Positions 47,496 to 51,541 of a DNA stretch of 64,000 bases are shown here, piece by piece (within the stretch, counting starts at the first letter, position 1; every line of letters starts with the position of its first letter). Below the pieces are notes generated by a model. The model worked only from the letters and a program-made list of their open reading frames with translations, ran no database searches and had not been told where the DNA came from. Origin of the DNA: a virus; IMG/VR virus record IMGVR_UViG_3300044645_002359, positions 86,355 through 150,354 of that record; one strand, given 5' to 3'. Position numbers and translations under genes: made by a program.

Positions 47496-47497
47496 GA

Positions 47498-47524
47498 AAT
47501 GCTAACGCATTTCGGTGCGTTTTT
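47498..47524 (+). terminator. Intrinsic terminator with alternative hairpin
   Basis: AACGCA-TTTCGG-TGCGTT (47505-47522) followed by TT. An alternative AAATGC-TAAC-GCATTT stem (47498-47503 with 47508-47513) competes for the same bases, as in attenuators. Confidence 0.6.
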
Positions 47525-47527
47525 ACT

Positions 47528-47562
47528 AAGAGCCTTCAACTTCCGGGTTGTGGGCTCTTTTC
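47528..47562 (+). terminator. Second intrinsic terminator
   Basis: AAGAGCC (47528-47534) pairs with GGCTCTT (47553-47559), with inner CAAC/GTTG, followed by TT. Tandem with the previous one. Confidence 0.65.
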
Positions 47563-47573
47563 ACTAAGTTTAC

Positions 47574-47601
47574 TTGAAGTCCCATTTAACTAAAATATAG
47601 T
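47574..47601 (+). promoter_or_regulatory. Sigma70-like promoter of the free-standing HNH gene
   Basis: TTGAAG (47574-47579), 16-bp spacer, TATAGT (47596-47601). It lies downstream of the terminators and 22 nt before the ATG (47623), so the endonuclease gene can be expressed independently. CAGGGAA provides the ribosome site. Confidence 0.55.
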
Positions 47602-47622
47602 TAATAAATCAGTATCAGGGAA

Positions 47623-48441
47623 ATGGGTTACCGAAAGAACCTTTTTATGGGGGCCTACATGAGACTTATGCGTAAGGGCAGAGGTAGAGGATTACTTACT
47701 AAAGGGGAGCAGGGGGTAATGCACAAACACCACATATTTCCTAAGTCTATTTTCAAGAACAAAAGGACCGTAAACAAGAAGATCGTAGGGTTAACTCCCA
47801 AGGAACACTTCCAGGCCCACCACCTGCTCTACCGTGCTTTTATCGATAGGTATGGAACTAACCACTGTAGAACAATAAAAATGGGTCATGCCATATCTAA
47901 AATGGCCACCAAGCACGGGAAACAAGGGGTTAGGAACATATTATCGTTAAAACAGTTTGAAGAAGCGGTGAATATGCAAAGGGTCTCCATGAGAGCCCGT
48001 TACTCTGACGAAAAGGAACGGGAGAAAACTTCCTTGAAGGCTAAAGAAAGAATGGCTAGAGAAGGAGAACGGGAGAAGATATCTGAATCTCTGAAAGAAT
48101 ACTTTAAAGACCCTAAGCAAAGGGAGAAGCAAAAATATAACACTCTGGGAAAAAAGTGGTATAATAACGGTGAGACCCAAACCTTGTCTTGGTGTTGTCC
48201 CGGAGAGGAATGGGTGAAAGGAAGACTATCGAATGGTATAACTGGAACATATTGGTGTAACAATGGATTTGAAAACTTAAAAGTGAGGAAAGGTAACGAA
48301 CCCCCTCAGGGATTTTCATCGGGTAGACTTATGAATCTTGGGAAGTTCTACAATGACGGTAAGAAACAAATAAGAGTTGCAGAAGGTTGTAAGGTTCCCT
48401 TAGGCTTCTCTCCTGGGCGACTCAAGAGAAATAGGGTATAA
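47623..48441 (+). CDS. Free-standing HNH homing endonuclease
   Basis: 272 aa. HKHHIFPKSIFKN (res 34-46) with LTPKEHFQAHHLL is the HNH core. A Lys/Glu/Arg-rich helical linker follows. Three C-terminal repeats of about 27-30 residues (KWYNNGETQ..., YWCNNGFEN...GFSSGRL, KFYNDGKKQ...GFSPGRL, about res 177-270) resemble a DNA-binding repeat also seen in the GIY-YIG protein. Sits upstream of the intron-split capsid gene with its own promoter. It may target an uninterrupted capsid allele. Confidence 0.75.
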   Translation: MGYRKNLFMGAYMRLMRKGRGRGLLTKGEQGVMHKHHIFPKSIFKNKRTVNKKIVGLTPKEHFQAHHLLYRAFIDRYGTNHCRTIKMGHAISKMATKHGKQGVRNILSLKQFEEAVNMQRVSMRARYSDEKEREKTSLKAKERMAREGEREKISESLKEYFKDPKQREKQKYNTLGKKWYNNGETQTLSWCCPGEEWVKGRLSNGITGTYWCNNGFENLKVRKGNEPPQGFSSGRLMNLGKFYNDGKKQIRVAEGCKVPLGFSPGRLKRNRV

Positions 48442-48524
48442 CTCTATTGGTTGCGACATCACGCTCACAACCAGATTGCTAAGGCAATCTTTGAAGTCAA
48501 CTTTACACAAAGGAAACATCTATT

Positions 48525-51500
48525 ATGATGAATCTTCAACAGACCTACGCCGGGGTCGATCCTATCTTGACCACGTTGGCGCAGGGCTTCATGCTCCCTT
48601 TGGTGTAGGGGAAAAGAAATTGGGTGAACTGCGGGAAAGCCTACTTTTGTTCAACGAAAGGGTCAATCCGCAGCCAAGCTTCCGGTACACCGGGAGAAGG
48701 TTCAGAGACTACCTGAGAGATATAGTTCTCTTAATAACAGGCTAGAGCGCCCAACGTTTTGTAAAGAAACGATAAGATAGTCCGACACTCTGTGTAAACA
48801 GAGAGAACATACTGTCCACCAACATCGCGAATCGATAAGGTTCCCTTCAGAGGCAACTCTGATTGAAAATCGGGTGAATTGCTGGGATACCTGACGGTTT
48901 CAGAATCTACTTTTCTGGAACACAAGGCAATCAGCAGCCAAGTTTACTTTGGGCATCTATTGGCTACAATAGAGATAAGTAAGAAGGTTCAACGACTAGA
49001 AAGTGATCAACCCAGAAATAATCTTTCCACGAGCGCCCGACTCTCCCTTACATTACCAACGGTATGTAAAGCTTATAAACTCCCGCCCCTCTAGAGGTTT
49101 GATAAAAGAGATTGGTTTCCACATCCACCACATAGTGCCTAAGTGCATGAAGGGTGGGAACGCTAAAGCCAATTTAGTTAAACTCACCTACAGAGAGCAT
49201 TATCTATCCCATTGCTTGTTAGCTTTAGCTTTCAGTTCCGTGAAGAAACTGGGTAAAGCTATAAACTCTTTCAAAAAGTCTTCAAAGAACTCTCGGGTTT
49301 ACGAAAAGGTGGCTCACCATGAGCACTCCGAAGAAACTAAAGTCAAAATTAGCAAATCCAACAAAGGAAAAGCTAGACCCCGTAAAGTTCCAATGTCTGA
49401 CGAAGAGAGAACTGCTCGCGCAGAACGATGTAAAAATAGGGTTTGGAGTGAAGAGTCAAAACAAAAACTTAGAGACAAAGCCTTAAGTAATCCTACTATC
49501 CAGTTTGCAATACAAGCAGCTAATAGCCCAGATAGAGATCGAACGGGAGTTAATAACCCCCGAGCAGATAAAGAAGTTTGGGCCAACTTAGGGGTCTTGC
49601 ATAGAGCCTGGACAGAAAACGGAAAGTGTGGTGCCAGAAAGCTCCACAGGCTAACAAAATTAGGTAATACTTGGCAATCTCTAAAAACCGTTGTTAAAAA
49701 GTTTAAGGAAGATGATGATATAGTCTGAACTTACAGGAAACTGTAAGAAGTGAGTGATAAACTCTCTCACGGTAACAAGTGTTTATCGCACCTGTTGTTG
49801 ACACCCCTACCAGAGCTGGGAGAATTCTCAGATTTGGTAAGGAACAATTTGCTATAAACGACTTCCGTCGTGCTTATGGTACAAACATTCCCTACGTTCA
49901 GAGCCGTTACGACTCTGAGCCCTACGCTCTTGAACAAGAAGTTGTGGCTTGGGAATTGCCTGAAGAAGTCGAACTGGCTTCCGCCGCTTGAGAGAGCGGT
50001 TGAAAAACTGGGTGAATTGCCTGGAACCCTAACTGCGTCAGCGTCGCACAAGGGAATCAGCAGCCAAGTTTACTACGTCGAGAAATCACTATGATTCCTG
50101 TAGTAAAAAGGTTCAACGACTAGACGATGAGTTTCGACAACAATAACTCGTCCACGAGTGCCCAGCACCCTAACAAATGGTTGAAATGGTACTACACTCT
50201 ATGCGCCTCCCGAAAACACAGGGGCGTATCCAAGGAAAAGGGTTACCACGTACATCACATTATTCCAGAATGTGACGGTGGTGACAACTCCAAAGAAAAC
50301 AGAGTGAAATTAACAAACCGAGAACACTTTATCGCTCATGTCCTCCTTGCAAAAGGAACTAACTCAGTCAAACACTGGTACACAGTTAGAAGGATGTTGG
50401 GAGTGAAAGGTGGGAAAGGCGCAGTTACCTACCAACCTCGTCTATCTATTCTATCTACTTCTCTTCAAAAGACTGCTTTTGAAATTGCCCCTGGAGCTGC
50501 GCAAAAGGGAAAACCAAAGTCGGAACAAATGCGTTCAAGACTAAGTCGGACCAAGAAAGGCAAACCTCTACCTCCTGAAACCGTACGAAAAGCACACGAA
50601 GCTGTTCGAGGCAGAGTTCAAACAGAAGAGGAAAAGCAAAGGCGAAGTGAGTCTGCAAAGGCTTACTGGGCCGAGAAAAGAATGAAAGACAAGGGTGAAG
50701 ATATAGTCTGACCTCCTCTAAAGAGAGAGAAGTGAGGGATAAAGAGCCCCCACGATAACACAAGTGCATCGAGAACGCTGGTGAAGGCCCTGCACAAGTA
50801 GACCTCCGCGCTTTCGAAACCCGTAACGCAATGTCCAGACTGATGAACTCATACGAGTACACAGTTTCTCAGGCCGTTACCGTTACCGGTTCCTACAACC
50901 CATATGAACCCTGGGATACAACCCCCGGTTCACAAACTGGCCTTGGTTTTACAACCTGGACCAACTTCAACACCGCTTATGGCACCGCAACCGGCCCCGC
51001 CGCATGGTCCGCTCTCTCTGCTAACCCCATTGAGGACATTCTGACCCTGAAGCGTGCTGTTGCCAACCAGATCGGCATCCGTCCGAACTCCGCTGTTCTT
51101 GGAACCGCTGTTTTCGACCTCTTGCTGACCAACCAAGCGATCCTTGAGCGTATCAAGTATACCTCACCCGACAGCATCGATACAGATGTCATCGCTCGCT
51201 ACTTCGGTCTTGAGCGTGGCCTGCGCGTAGCCGAAGGTCGTTATTTGGCCGCAGACGGTACCTTGCAACCGGTATTCCCAAGCAACGGTATCCTTCTGTT
51301 CTACAGCCCCAACGGCCCCTCTGATTCAATCATGCCTGCCGGTGGCGCTAATGCTGCGACTCCTGCGTTTAGCTACACATACCAGTTGACTGGCACACCC
51401 GCTGTCCGTCCTGAGTACTACATTCGCGAACGCCGCGTTGTACGTGCTGAAATCTCAATCGAACGTGTGGTTAACCTAGTTGGCCTCGGTGCAACTGGTC

Positions 51501-51541
51501 TTATTGGTTCTGGCGCTATGATCACCGACATCCTGTCCTGA
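48525..51541 (+). CDS. Major capsid protein, split by three group I introns
   Basis: Exon 1 is 48525-48599 (ATG; alternative 48528), exon 2 is 48815-48836 (22 nt), exon 3 is 49780-49988 and exon 4 is 50765-51541. Lengths 75+22+209+777 total 1083 nt, exactly 360 codons plus stop. The joined N-terminus reads GFMLP, then STNIANR, then LFIAPVVDTPTRAG, a capsid-like N-arm (NIANRLF..APV). RILRFGKEQF and later RRAYGTNIPY continue. Exon 4 has ILTLKRAVANQIGIRPNS and AVLGTAVFDLLLTN, typical of HK97-fold capsids of Mu-related phages. The ribosome site is AAAGGAA (48509-48515). Exon edges were set by frame and P1 pairing and may be off by 1-2 nt. Confidence 0.8.
48600..48814 (+). ncRNA. Group I intron A (ORF-less, 215 nt)
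   Basis: Exon 1 ends ...CTCCCT; TCCCT pairs with GGGGA just inside the intron (P1). A P3/P4 segment GGGTGAACTGCGGGAAAGCC and CCGCAGCCAAGC (P4') are visible. The R element is GGTTCAGAGACTA (48699-48711) and the S element AAGATAGTCCGA (48774-48785); GACTA pairs with TAGTC as P7. A P9 hairpin CTCTG...CAGAG follows. The intron ends at G48814. No ORF inside. Confidence 0.75.
48837..49779 (+). ncRNA. Group I intron B (943 nt, HNH-encoding)
   Basis: Starts right after the 22-nt exon; exon TCGAT can pair with ATTGA inside the intron. The core GGGTGAATTGCTGGGATACC and CAATCAGCAGCCAAG is typical of phage IA introns. R is GGTTCAACGACTAGA (48986-49000), S is GATATAGTCTGA (49717-49728). CTTACAG-GAAA-CTGTAAG (GAAA tetraloop) and GTGAG...CTCAC hairpins follow. 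Ends at G49779. The ORF lies between R and S, in the P8 region. Confidence 0.8.
49003..49728 (+). CDS. Intron B-encoded HNH homing endonuclease
   Basis: 241 aa, GTG start 3 nt after the R element. FHIHHIVPKCMKGGNAKANL with LTYREHYLSHCLLA is the HNH core. Helical Lys-rich middle with SEETKVKISKSNKGKARP and SEESKQKLRDKALSNP, which resemble NUMOD3-like motifs. The C-terminus (TENGKCGARKLHRLTKLGNT) is basic and may bind DNA. The stop codon TGA is the end of the S element, so gene and ribozyme share sequence. Confidence 0.8.
   Translation: MINPEIIFPRAPDSPLHYQRYVKLINSRPSRGLIKEIGFHIHHIVPKCMKGGNAKANLVKLTYREHYLSHCLLALAFSSVKKLGKAINSFKKSSKNSRVYEKVAHHEHSEETKVKISKSNKGKARPRKVPMSDEERTARAERCKNRVWSEESKQKLRDKALSNPTIQFAIQAANSPDRDRTGVNNPRADKEVWANLGVLHRAWTENGKCGARKLHRLTKLGNTWQSLKTVVKKFKEDDDIV
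49989..50764 (+). ncRNA. Group I intron C (776 nt, HNH-encoding)
   Basis: The exon 3 end CCGCT/CCGCTT pairs with (G)AGCGG in the first 15 nt (P1). Core GGGTGAATTGCCTGGAACCC and GAATCAGCAGCCAAG, R GGTTCAACGACTAGA (50110-50124), S GATATAGTCTGA (50700-50711). Ends CACAAG at 50764. Intron B and C cores are near-identical in R, S and P4', implying one spread from the other or both from a common source. A splice placement one base later gives the same protein. Confidence 0.8.
50127..50711 (+). CDS. Intron C-encoded HNH homing endonuclease
   Basis: 194 aa. YHVHHIIPECDGGDNSKENR with LTNREHFIAHVLLA is the HNH core. KPKSEQMRSRLSRTKKGKPL and LPPETVRKAHEAVRGRVQTE are NUMOD3-like basic segments. Its C-terminus ends GEDIV followed by TGA in the S element, as in intron B. 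Clearly a relative of the intron B enzyme, though diverged outside the core. Confidence 0.8.
   Translation: MSFDNNNSSTSAQHPNKWLKWYYTLCASRKHRGVSKEKGYHVHHIIPECDGGDNSKENRVKLTNREHFIAHVLLAKGTNSVKHWYTVRRMLGVKGGKGAVTYQPRLSILSTSLQKTAFEIAPGAAQKGKPKSEQMRSRLSRTKKGKPLPPETVRKAHEAVRGRVQTEEEKQRRSESAKAYWAEKRMKDKGEDIV

Follow-up and report, generated by a model that had tools for sequence, protein, structure and literature searches.

The capsid locus at 48525-51541 raises the question of how a gene interrupted three times, with a very small exon between two of the interruptions, can still specify a single protein, and whether such a load is peculiar to this gene or common to its relatives. We analyzed it within a window of 64,000 nucleotides, which lies inside a 201,260-base metagenomic assembly from IMG/VR. 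The photosynthesis gene psbA, which would have been a clue to the host, was absent from the record. The joined exons specify a major head protein, with matches to PHROG_1005 (5e-47), to the Pfam family Phage_cap_E (PF03864, above its cut-off) and to the solved phage protein 3bjq_A (7e-27). The nearest isolate homologue is the capsid protein of Synechococcus phage S-CBWM1 (65% identity), whose gene is uninterrupted and has no intron, followed by those of S-TIM5-like cyanophages (36%) and of Mu-like phages such as RcapMu (31%). The neighbouring genes encode a Mu-type portal, a Mu-type protease/scaffold and a tail tube protein.

We then characterized the intervening pieces. All three matched the Rfam model Intron_gpI (RF00028) over its full length, with scores (Table 1) above the curated cut-off of 50 bits; the edges of these matches (48508-48804, 48823-49747 and 49966-50729) are those of the model and not splice sites. 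A preliminary description, made from the letters of the window, had proposed that a major capsid gene of Mu-like type is interrupted by three group I introns, two of which are separated by a very small exon. The covariance-model matches and the intronless relatives support this proposal, the joined product is capsid-like as it had stated, and the R and S elements that it had paired as P7 were found in each piece as GACUA/UAGUC. In the whole 201-kb record we observed no additional group I introns, the five hits being pieces of the same three introns. A fourth intron considered upstream of the gene (47496-48524) gave no Rfam match even at an E-value of 1; this spacer contains a free-standing HNH gene.

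The boundaries were obtained with a spliced aligner based on dynamic programming, whose inputs are the protein and the rule that an intron is preceded by U and ends in G. It independently recovered the three introns at the positions presented in Table 1, with a score of 1760 compared to at most 96 in the controls (five shuffled sequences and ten pieces from elsewhere in the window). The exons add up to 75 + 18 + 188 + 775 nt = 1056 nt, which corresponds to 351 codons and a stop, and removal of the introns restores the frame of the intronless homologues over 351 aa without gaps.

Table 1. Position of the exons, introns and endonuclease ORFs of the capsid locus in the window.
Feature	Position	Strand	Characteristics
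Exon 1	48525..48599	+	75 nt, MMNLQQ...GFMLP; intronless-relative alignment, spliced aligner
Intron 1, group I, no ORF	48600..48814	+	215 nt, after codon 25; RF00028 65.8 bits
Intron 1 P1 UCCCU:GGGGA	IGS 48608-48612	+	P7 48707-48711/48778-48782; ends in G
Exon 2, micro-exon	48815..48832	+	18 nt, UCCACCAACAUCGCGAAU = STNIAN; six whole codons
Intron 2, group I	48833..49781	+	949 nt, after codon 31; RF00028 56.2 bits
Intron 2 P1 GAAU:GUUC	IGS 48840-48843	+	P10 CGAUAAG/UUUAUCG; P7 48994-48998/49721-49725; ends in G
HNH homing-endonuclease ORF in intron 2	49003..49728	+	241 aa; PHROG_655 5e-31, NUMOD3
Exon 3	49782..49969	+	188 nt, FIAPVV...LPEEV; intronless relatives, spliced aligner
Intron 3, group I	49970..50766	+	797 nt, inside codon 94 (phase 2); RF00028 70.0 bits
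Intron 3 P1 GAAGU:GCUUC	IGS 49977-49981	+	P7 50118-50122/50704-50708; ends in G
HNH homing-endonuclease ORF in intron 3	50127..50711	+	194 aa; PHROG_655 5e-27
Exon 4	50767..51541	+	775 nt including stop, IENAGEG...TDILS; relatives, aligner, Phage_cap_E, PHROG_1005
Free-standing HNH endonuclease ORF	47623..48441	+	272 aa; PHROG_655 1e-16; upstream of the capsid gene

From these features, we infer that the three introns would excise themselves from the transcript and restore the 351-aa capsid protein. Each excision would proceed by two guanosine-dependent transesterifications, in which the internal guide of the intron would choose the 5' site by pairing with the exon end (P1, with its U.G pair) and P10 would align the 3' exon. 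At all three 5' sites, the exon-final U lies in a U.G pair within P1, and every intron ends in G. The P10 pairing between guide and 3' exon comprises 7 of 8 positions for intron 1 (chance 0.02), 7 of 7 for intron 2 (0.0006) and 3 of 7 for intron 3 (0.49). It is strong in the first two introns and weak in intron 3, a point that speaks against the present reading.

In exon 2, the first 6-8 nt form P10 of intron 1 and the last 4 nt form P1 of intron 2; since the two segments do not overlap, 18 nt can serve both ribozymes. Being short, in frame and flanked by two group I introns, this exon might also be skipped often, which would produce a 345-aa in-frame variant alongside the full protein, and such skipping is documented for the 23-nt exon of orf142 in phage Twort (PMC10136302). 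However, swapping the guides leaves a single base pair in each case, between intron 2 and the end of exon 1 and between intron 1 and the end of exon 2. Since neither guide complements the exon end used by the other, exon 2 should be included rather than skipped. In addition, the two introns flanking exon 2 are dissimilar, in contrast to the highly similar skipping pair of Twort. We consequently regard frequent skipping as unlikely, and the full 351-aa protein as the expected product.

The preliminary description had joined the exons differently. Compared to the intronless relatives, it placed intron 1 exactly but displaced introns 2 and 3, so that its micro-exon measured 22 nt and its product 360 codons, with 27 nt of intron retained as nine extra residues; homologues and guides bring these values to 18 nt and 351 aa. 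Its join is likewise an open frame, reading NIANRLFIA and EEVELASAACIEN (also given as EEVELASAACIENAG) at junctions 2 and 3, and would be correct if this capsid had extra residues at two junctions. By contrast, all 20 intronless relatives examined (taken from the first-search set, with 80 loci retained, 86-92% identical overall) lack extra residues at precisely those junctions and read NIAN/FIAPVV and LPEEV/IENAGEG; at the first of these, the motif STNIAN or ATNIAN is directly followed by FIAP. Furthermore, P1 requires U48832 in intron 2 (GAAU:GUUC) and U49969 in intron 3 (GAAGU:GCUUC), and the P10 helix of intron 2, with its 7 bp, can form only if exon 3 starts at 49782. It is thus very improbable that the longer join is the right one. 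The corrected join predicts a protein containing MLPSTNIANFIAPVV and LPEEVIENAGEG, the first of which discriminates between an 18-nt and a 22-nt exon.

The metagenomic origin of the record could also favor a decayed, non-functional capsid copy or interruptions that are assembly artefacts. This explanation is barely credible, since no second, intact capsid copy was found in the 201-kb record, every exon is intact and the coding sequence is under strong purifying selection (dN 0.047 and dS 0.83 compared to L006, dN/dS about 0.06), while identical insertion sites recur across contigs from many samples, including records of 277 and 279 kb. Inteins, group II introns and programmed frameshifts do occur in phage genes, but here their probability is negligible, RF00028 being the only significant Rfam match and each exon, when read through into its intron, meeting an in-frame stop soon after, which rules out inteins and simple frameshifts. 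Overall, we hold with high confidence that the gene at 48525-51541 is functional, is present in a single copy and encodes the major capsid protein of a large tailed phage known from uncultured material, that three group I introns interrupt it, and that it belongs to a family whose introns appear to have multiplied inside this gene.

This family was delineated with the spliced aligner, which detected introns in the capsid gene of about 35 other IMG/VR contigs. The introns occupy 16 insertion sites, located after codons 3, 12, 25, 31, 50, 64, 91, 101, 106 and 309 and inside codons 14, 54, 94, 119, 297 and 299. The window has site 31 in common with L088 and L137, site 25 with L139 and site 93/94 with L089. 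Single introns were observed in L088 (site 31), in L089 (codon 94, the site of window intron 3) and in L074, L082, L083 and L084 (site 3 in each). Five introns were found in L225 and in the 277-kb record L231, six in L135, L139, L140 and L143, nine in the 103-kb record L234 and at least 11 in L227 before the contig ends. The highest number, thirteen, was reached both in the 24-kb contig L218 and in the 279-kb record G030 (locus L249), each encoding an intact 351-aa protein. The exons of L218 measure 9, 27, 5, 52, 67, 32, 81, 30, 15, 38, 533, 6, 32 and 126 nt, and G030 additionally has exons of 10 and 8 nt; the 6-nt exon of the 13-intron gene reads ACACGT.

The stringency of these counts was assessed on unrelated DNA (L222), used as a null, on which the aligner scored 140; under a loose penalty, the score rose to 330 with 36 chance introns. 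Because a loose penalty invents introns in unrelated DNA, its results were accepted only where Rfam or strict scoring concurred, and the counts are based on scores close to the maximum, on runs at the strict penalty and on Rfam. Rfam supports the introns of the family, and all 15 Rfam hits on the L218 contig fall inside its 13 introns. Extra introns proposed at contig edges (L126-L128, L147, the L137 tail, L246 and L248) were aligner artefacts and were not counted. We also compared 13 sister introns from different sites, in which all pair cells were standard (377/377) and 13 pairs had changed on both sides, compared to 7.7 in shuffles. Their covariation score was 0.41, against 0.14 when shuffled and at most 0.09 in slid controls; P3, P6 and P9 vary with compensation and P4 and P7 are invariant. 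One site departs from the usual pattern: in L249, L234, L227 and L244, the site-31 intron has the usual guide (GAAU:GUUC), and its in-frame 3' junction, GUUUUGUAUAUUA/UUCAUAGCA, has no preceding G. This points either to an unusual 3' end or to another join, which would change AN to IL.

The relatedness of introns from different sites was then analyzed. Within L218, exact matches between introns located at different sites reach 95 nt (sites 13/14 and 64). Except for those at sites 31 and 297, all introns (11 of the 13) have at least 54 nt in common with an intron at another site. In a comparison with seven regions of group I introns taken from other genes of phages, the longest match was 28 nt. 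An exact scan of 2.9 million viral contigs with a diagnostic 37-mer returned nine stretches, all in introns of the capsid gene, the contig L248 being represented by codons 1-12 and the following intron only. Taken together, these results suggest that introns appear to have multiplied within one capsid gene, intragenic copying being the simplest reading. Reverse splicing, endonuclease cutting and recombination are candidate routes. The stretches shared within L218 form a mosaic, in which different introns share different domains, and this points to recombination between introns. The window introns conform to intragenic multiplication in part. Introns located at other sites in the relatives have 56 nt in common with intron 3 and 37 nt with intron 2, and intron 1 is, from its sequence matches, an outsider related to psbA introns.

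In a tree of the spliced coding sequences, the intron-rich genes mostly grouped together, with moderate support. The same tree, with the same level of support, placed the intronless L006 beside genes with 9 to 13 introns, suggesting that intron number changes quickly. Long and short introns were observed at the same site in four cases: 3 (899 or 266 nt), 106 (969 or 280 nt), 118 (1011 or 299 nt) and 298 (914 or 329 nt). Where checked, the long versions carry endonuclease-like ORFs, as expected for a homing cycle of gain and decay.

The shortest L218 exon, CCCAU, bears on the order of splicing. Four of its five bases are needed for P1 of the next intron (CCAU:GUGG), and CCCAU also occupies the P10 position of the preceding intron. 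Since P1 and P10 cannot coexist on these bases, removal of the two introns would have to be sequential. On balance, we lean towards viewing this capsid gene as an intron breeding ground, in which site-to-site copying and recombination have filled up to 13 of at least 16 sites, leaving exons of 5-10 nt and forcing sequential removal.

Concerning mobility, the ORFs borne by introns 2 and 3 match the PHROG_655 family, and their Pfam HNH match is below its own cut-off. Compared to its L137 orthologue, the HNH gene of intron 2 has a dN of 0.045 and a dS of 0.24, and that of intron 3 has a dN of 0.065 and a dS of 0.81 compared to L089. Judged by these rates, both endonucleases are constrained by selection, and introns 2 and 3 are probably mobile via these enzymes. 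A DNA search of isolates gave only a 66-nt match for intron 3, at its 3' end. Both ORFs end within the 3' strand of P7 (49721-49728 and 50704-50711; GAUAUAGUCUGA), which means that the ribozyme core determines the final codons of each.

Intron 1 has no ORF, and its nearest isolate matches lie beside the psbA coding sequence of S-SRM01 (78% over 137 nt) and in psbA of S-PM2 (84% over 81 nt). These are the closest isolate sequences to intron 1, although they belong to another gene. In S-PM2, the homing endonuclease gene F-CphI adjoins the psbA region, whereas here the enzyme encoded beside the capsid gene is a PHROG_655 HNH protein. This free-standing gene is located between the genes for a presumed decoration protein and the capsid, and is missing there in L006, L139 and L151, where the spacer upstream of the capsid gene measures about 175 nt. 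Its position in the spacer, together with the neighbouring F-CphI of S-PM2, makes collaborative homing of intron 1 plausible, with the free-standing HNH as the candidate partner. As a side observation, S-SRM01 has an unannotated group I intron-like sequence directly after its psbA coding sequence (L235, 601-734), and its psbA may be split and under-annotated.

We finally compared these genes with known systems. Taken alone, the window gene resembles a known kind. The tail tube gene orf142 of the Staphylococcus phage Twort has three group I introns and a 23-nt exon (PMC10136302; PMC11878797), and its introns 2 and 3 are highly similar, with exon skipping seen (PMC10136302). In both cases, one virion gene is interrupted by three group I introns, two of which are separated by a very short exon, but the introns flanking the short exon here are dissimilar, the exon is 18 nt long and the relatives reach 13 introns and 5-nt exons. 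Bastillevirinae have up to three introns per gene (PMC11878797). The capsid gene of a crAss-like phage of the Zeta group (cMAG OLRF01000054) is in five fragments with group I introns (PMC7886860); its four intervening segments compare with 13 introns in the relatives described here, and it belongs to an unrelated phage group. The capsid gene of Faustovirus E12 is also intron-laden, with 12 introns and a smallest exon of 13 nt (PMC6247863), but this is a eukaryotic giant virus, its introns are far longer and only 5 of the 12 are group I. In Jug phages, each genome holds many introns, and metatranscriptomes have shown their splicing (PMC12363816). Exons of 3 bp and 1 nt between introns, reported for mitochondrial or organellar genes (cited in PMC12308204), are comparable in length, but they are organellar and not from phages.

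What is unusual is the intron load of the family, together with its apparent intragenic multiplication. A coding sequence of 1053 nt that carries thirteen group I introns surpasses all phage cases that we found (three in Twort, four in the crAss-like phage), and our literature search, incomplete in its coverage, returned no phage gene with more than four introns. The exons of 5 and 6 nt test the sharing of exon sequence between ribozymes, and relatives with 0, 1, 3, 5, 6, 9 and 13 introns constitute a natural series for gain, loss and spread. Very strong expression is required of a capsid gene; this calls for efficient splicing and makes it possible to measure what 13 splicing reactions in succession cost. 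For annotation, intron-split capsid genes appear broken and are easily overlooked. Outside the capsid gene, G030 has three further group I introns clustered in an apparent helicase-like gene (L250, 2879-3955, minus strand), and the 73-kb contig G008 has one group I intron (L233, 2192-2420; 51.9 bits).
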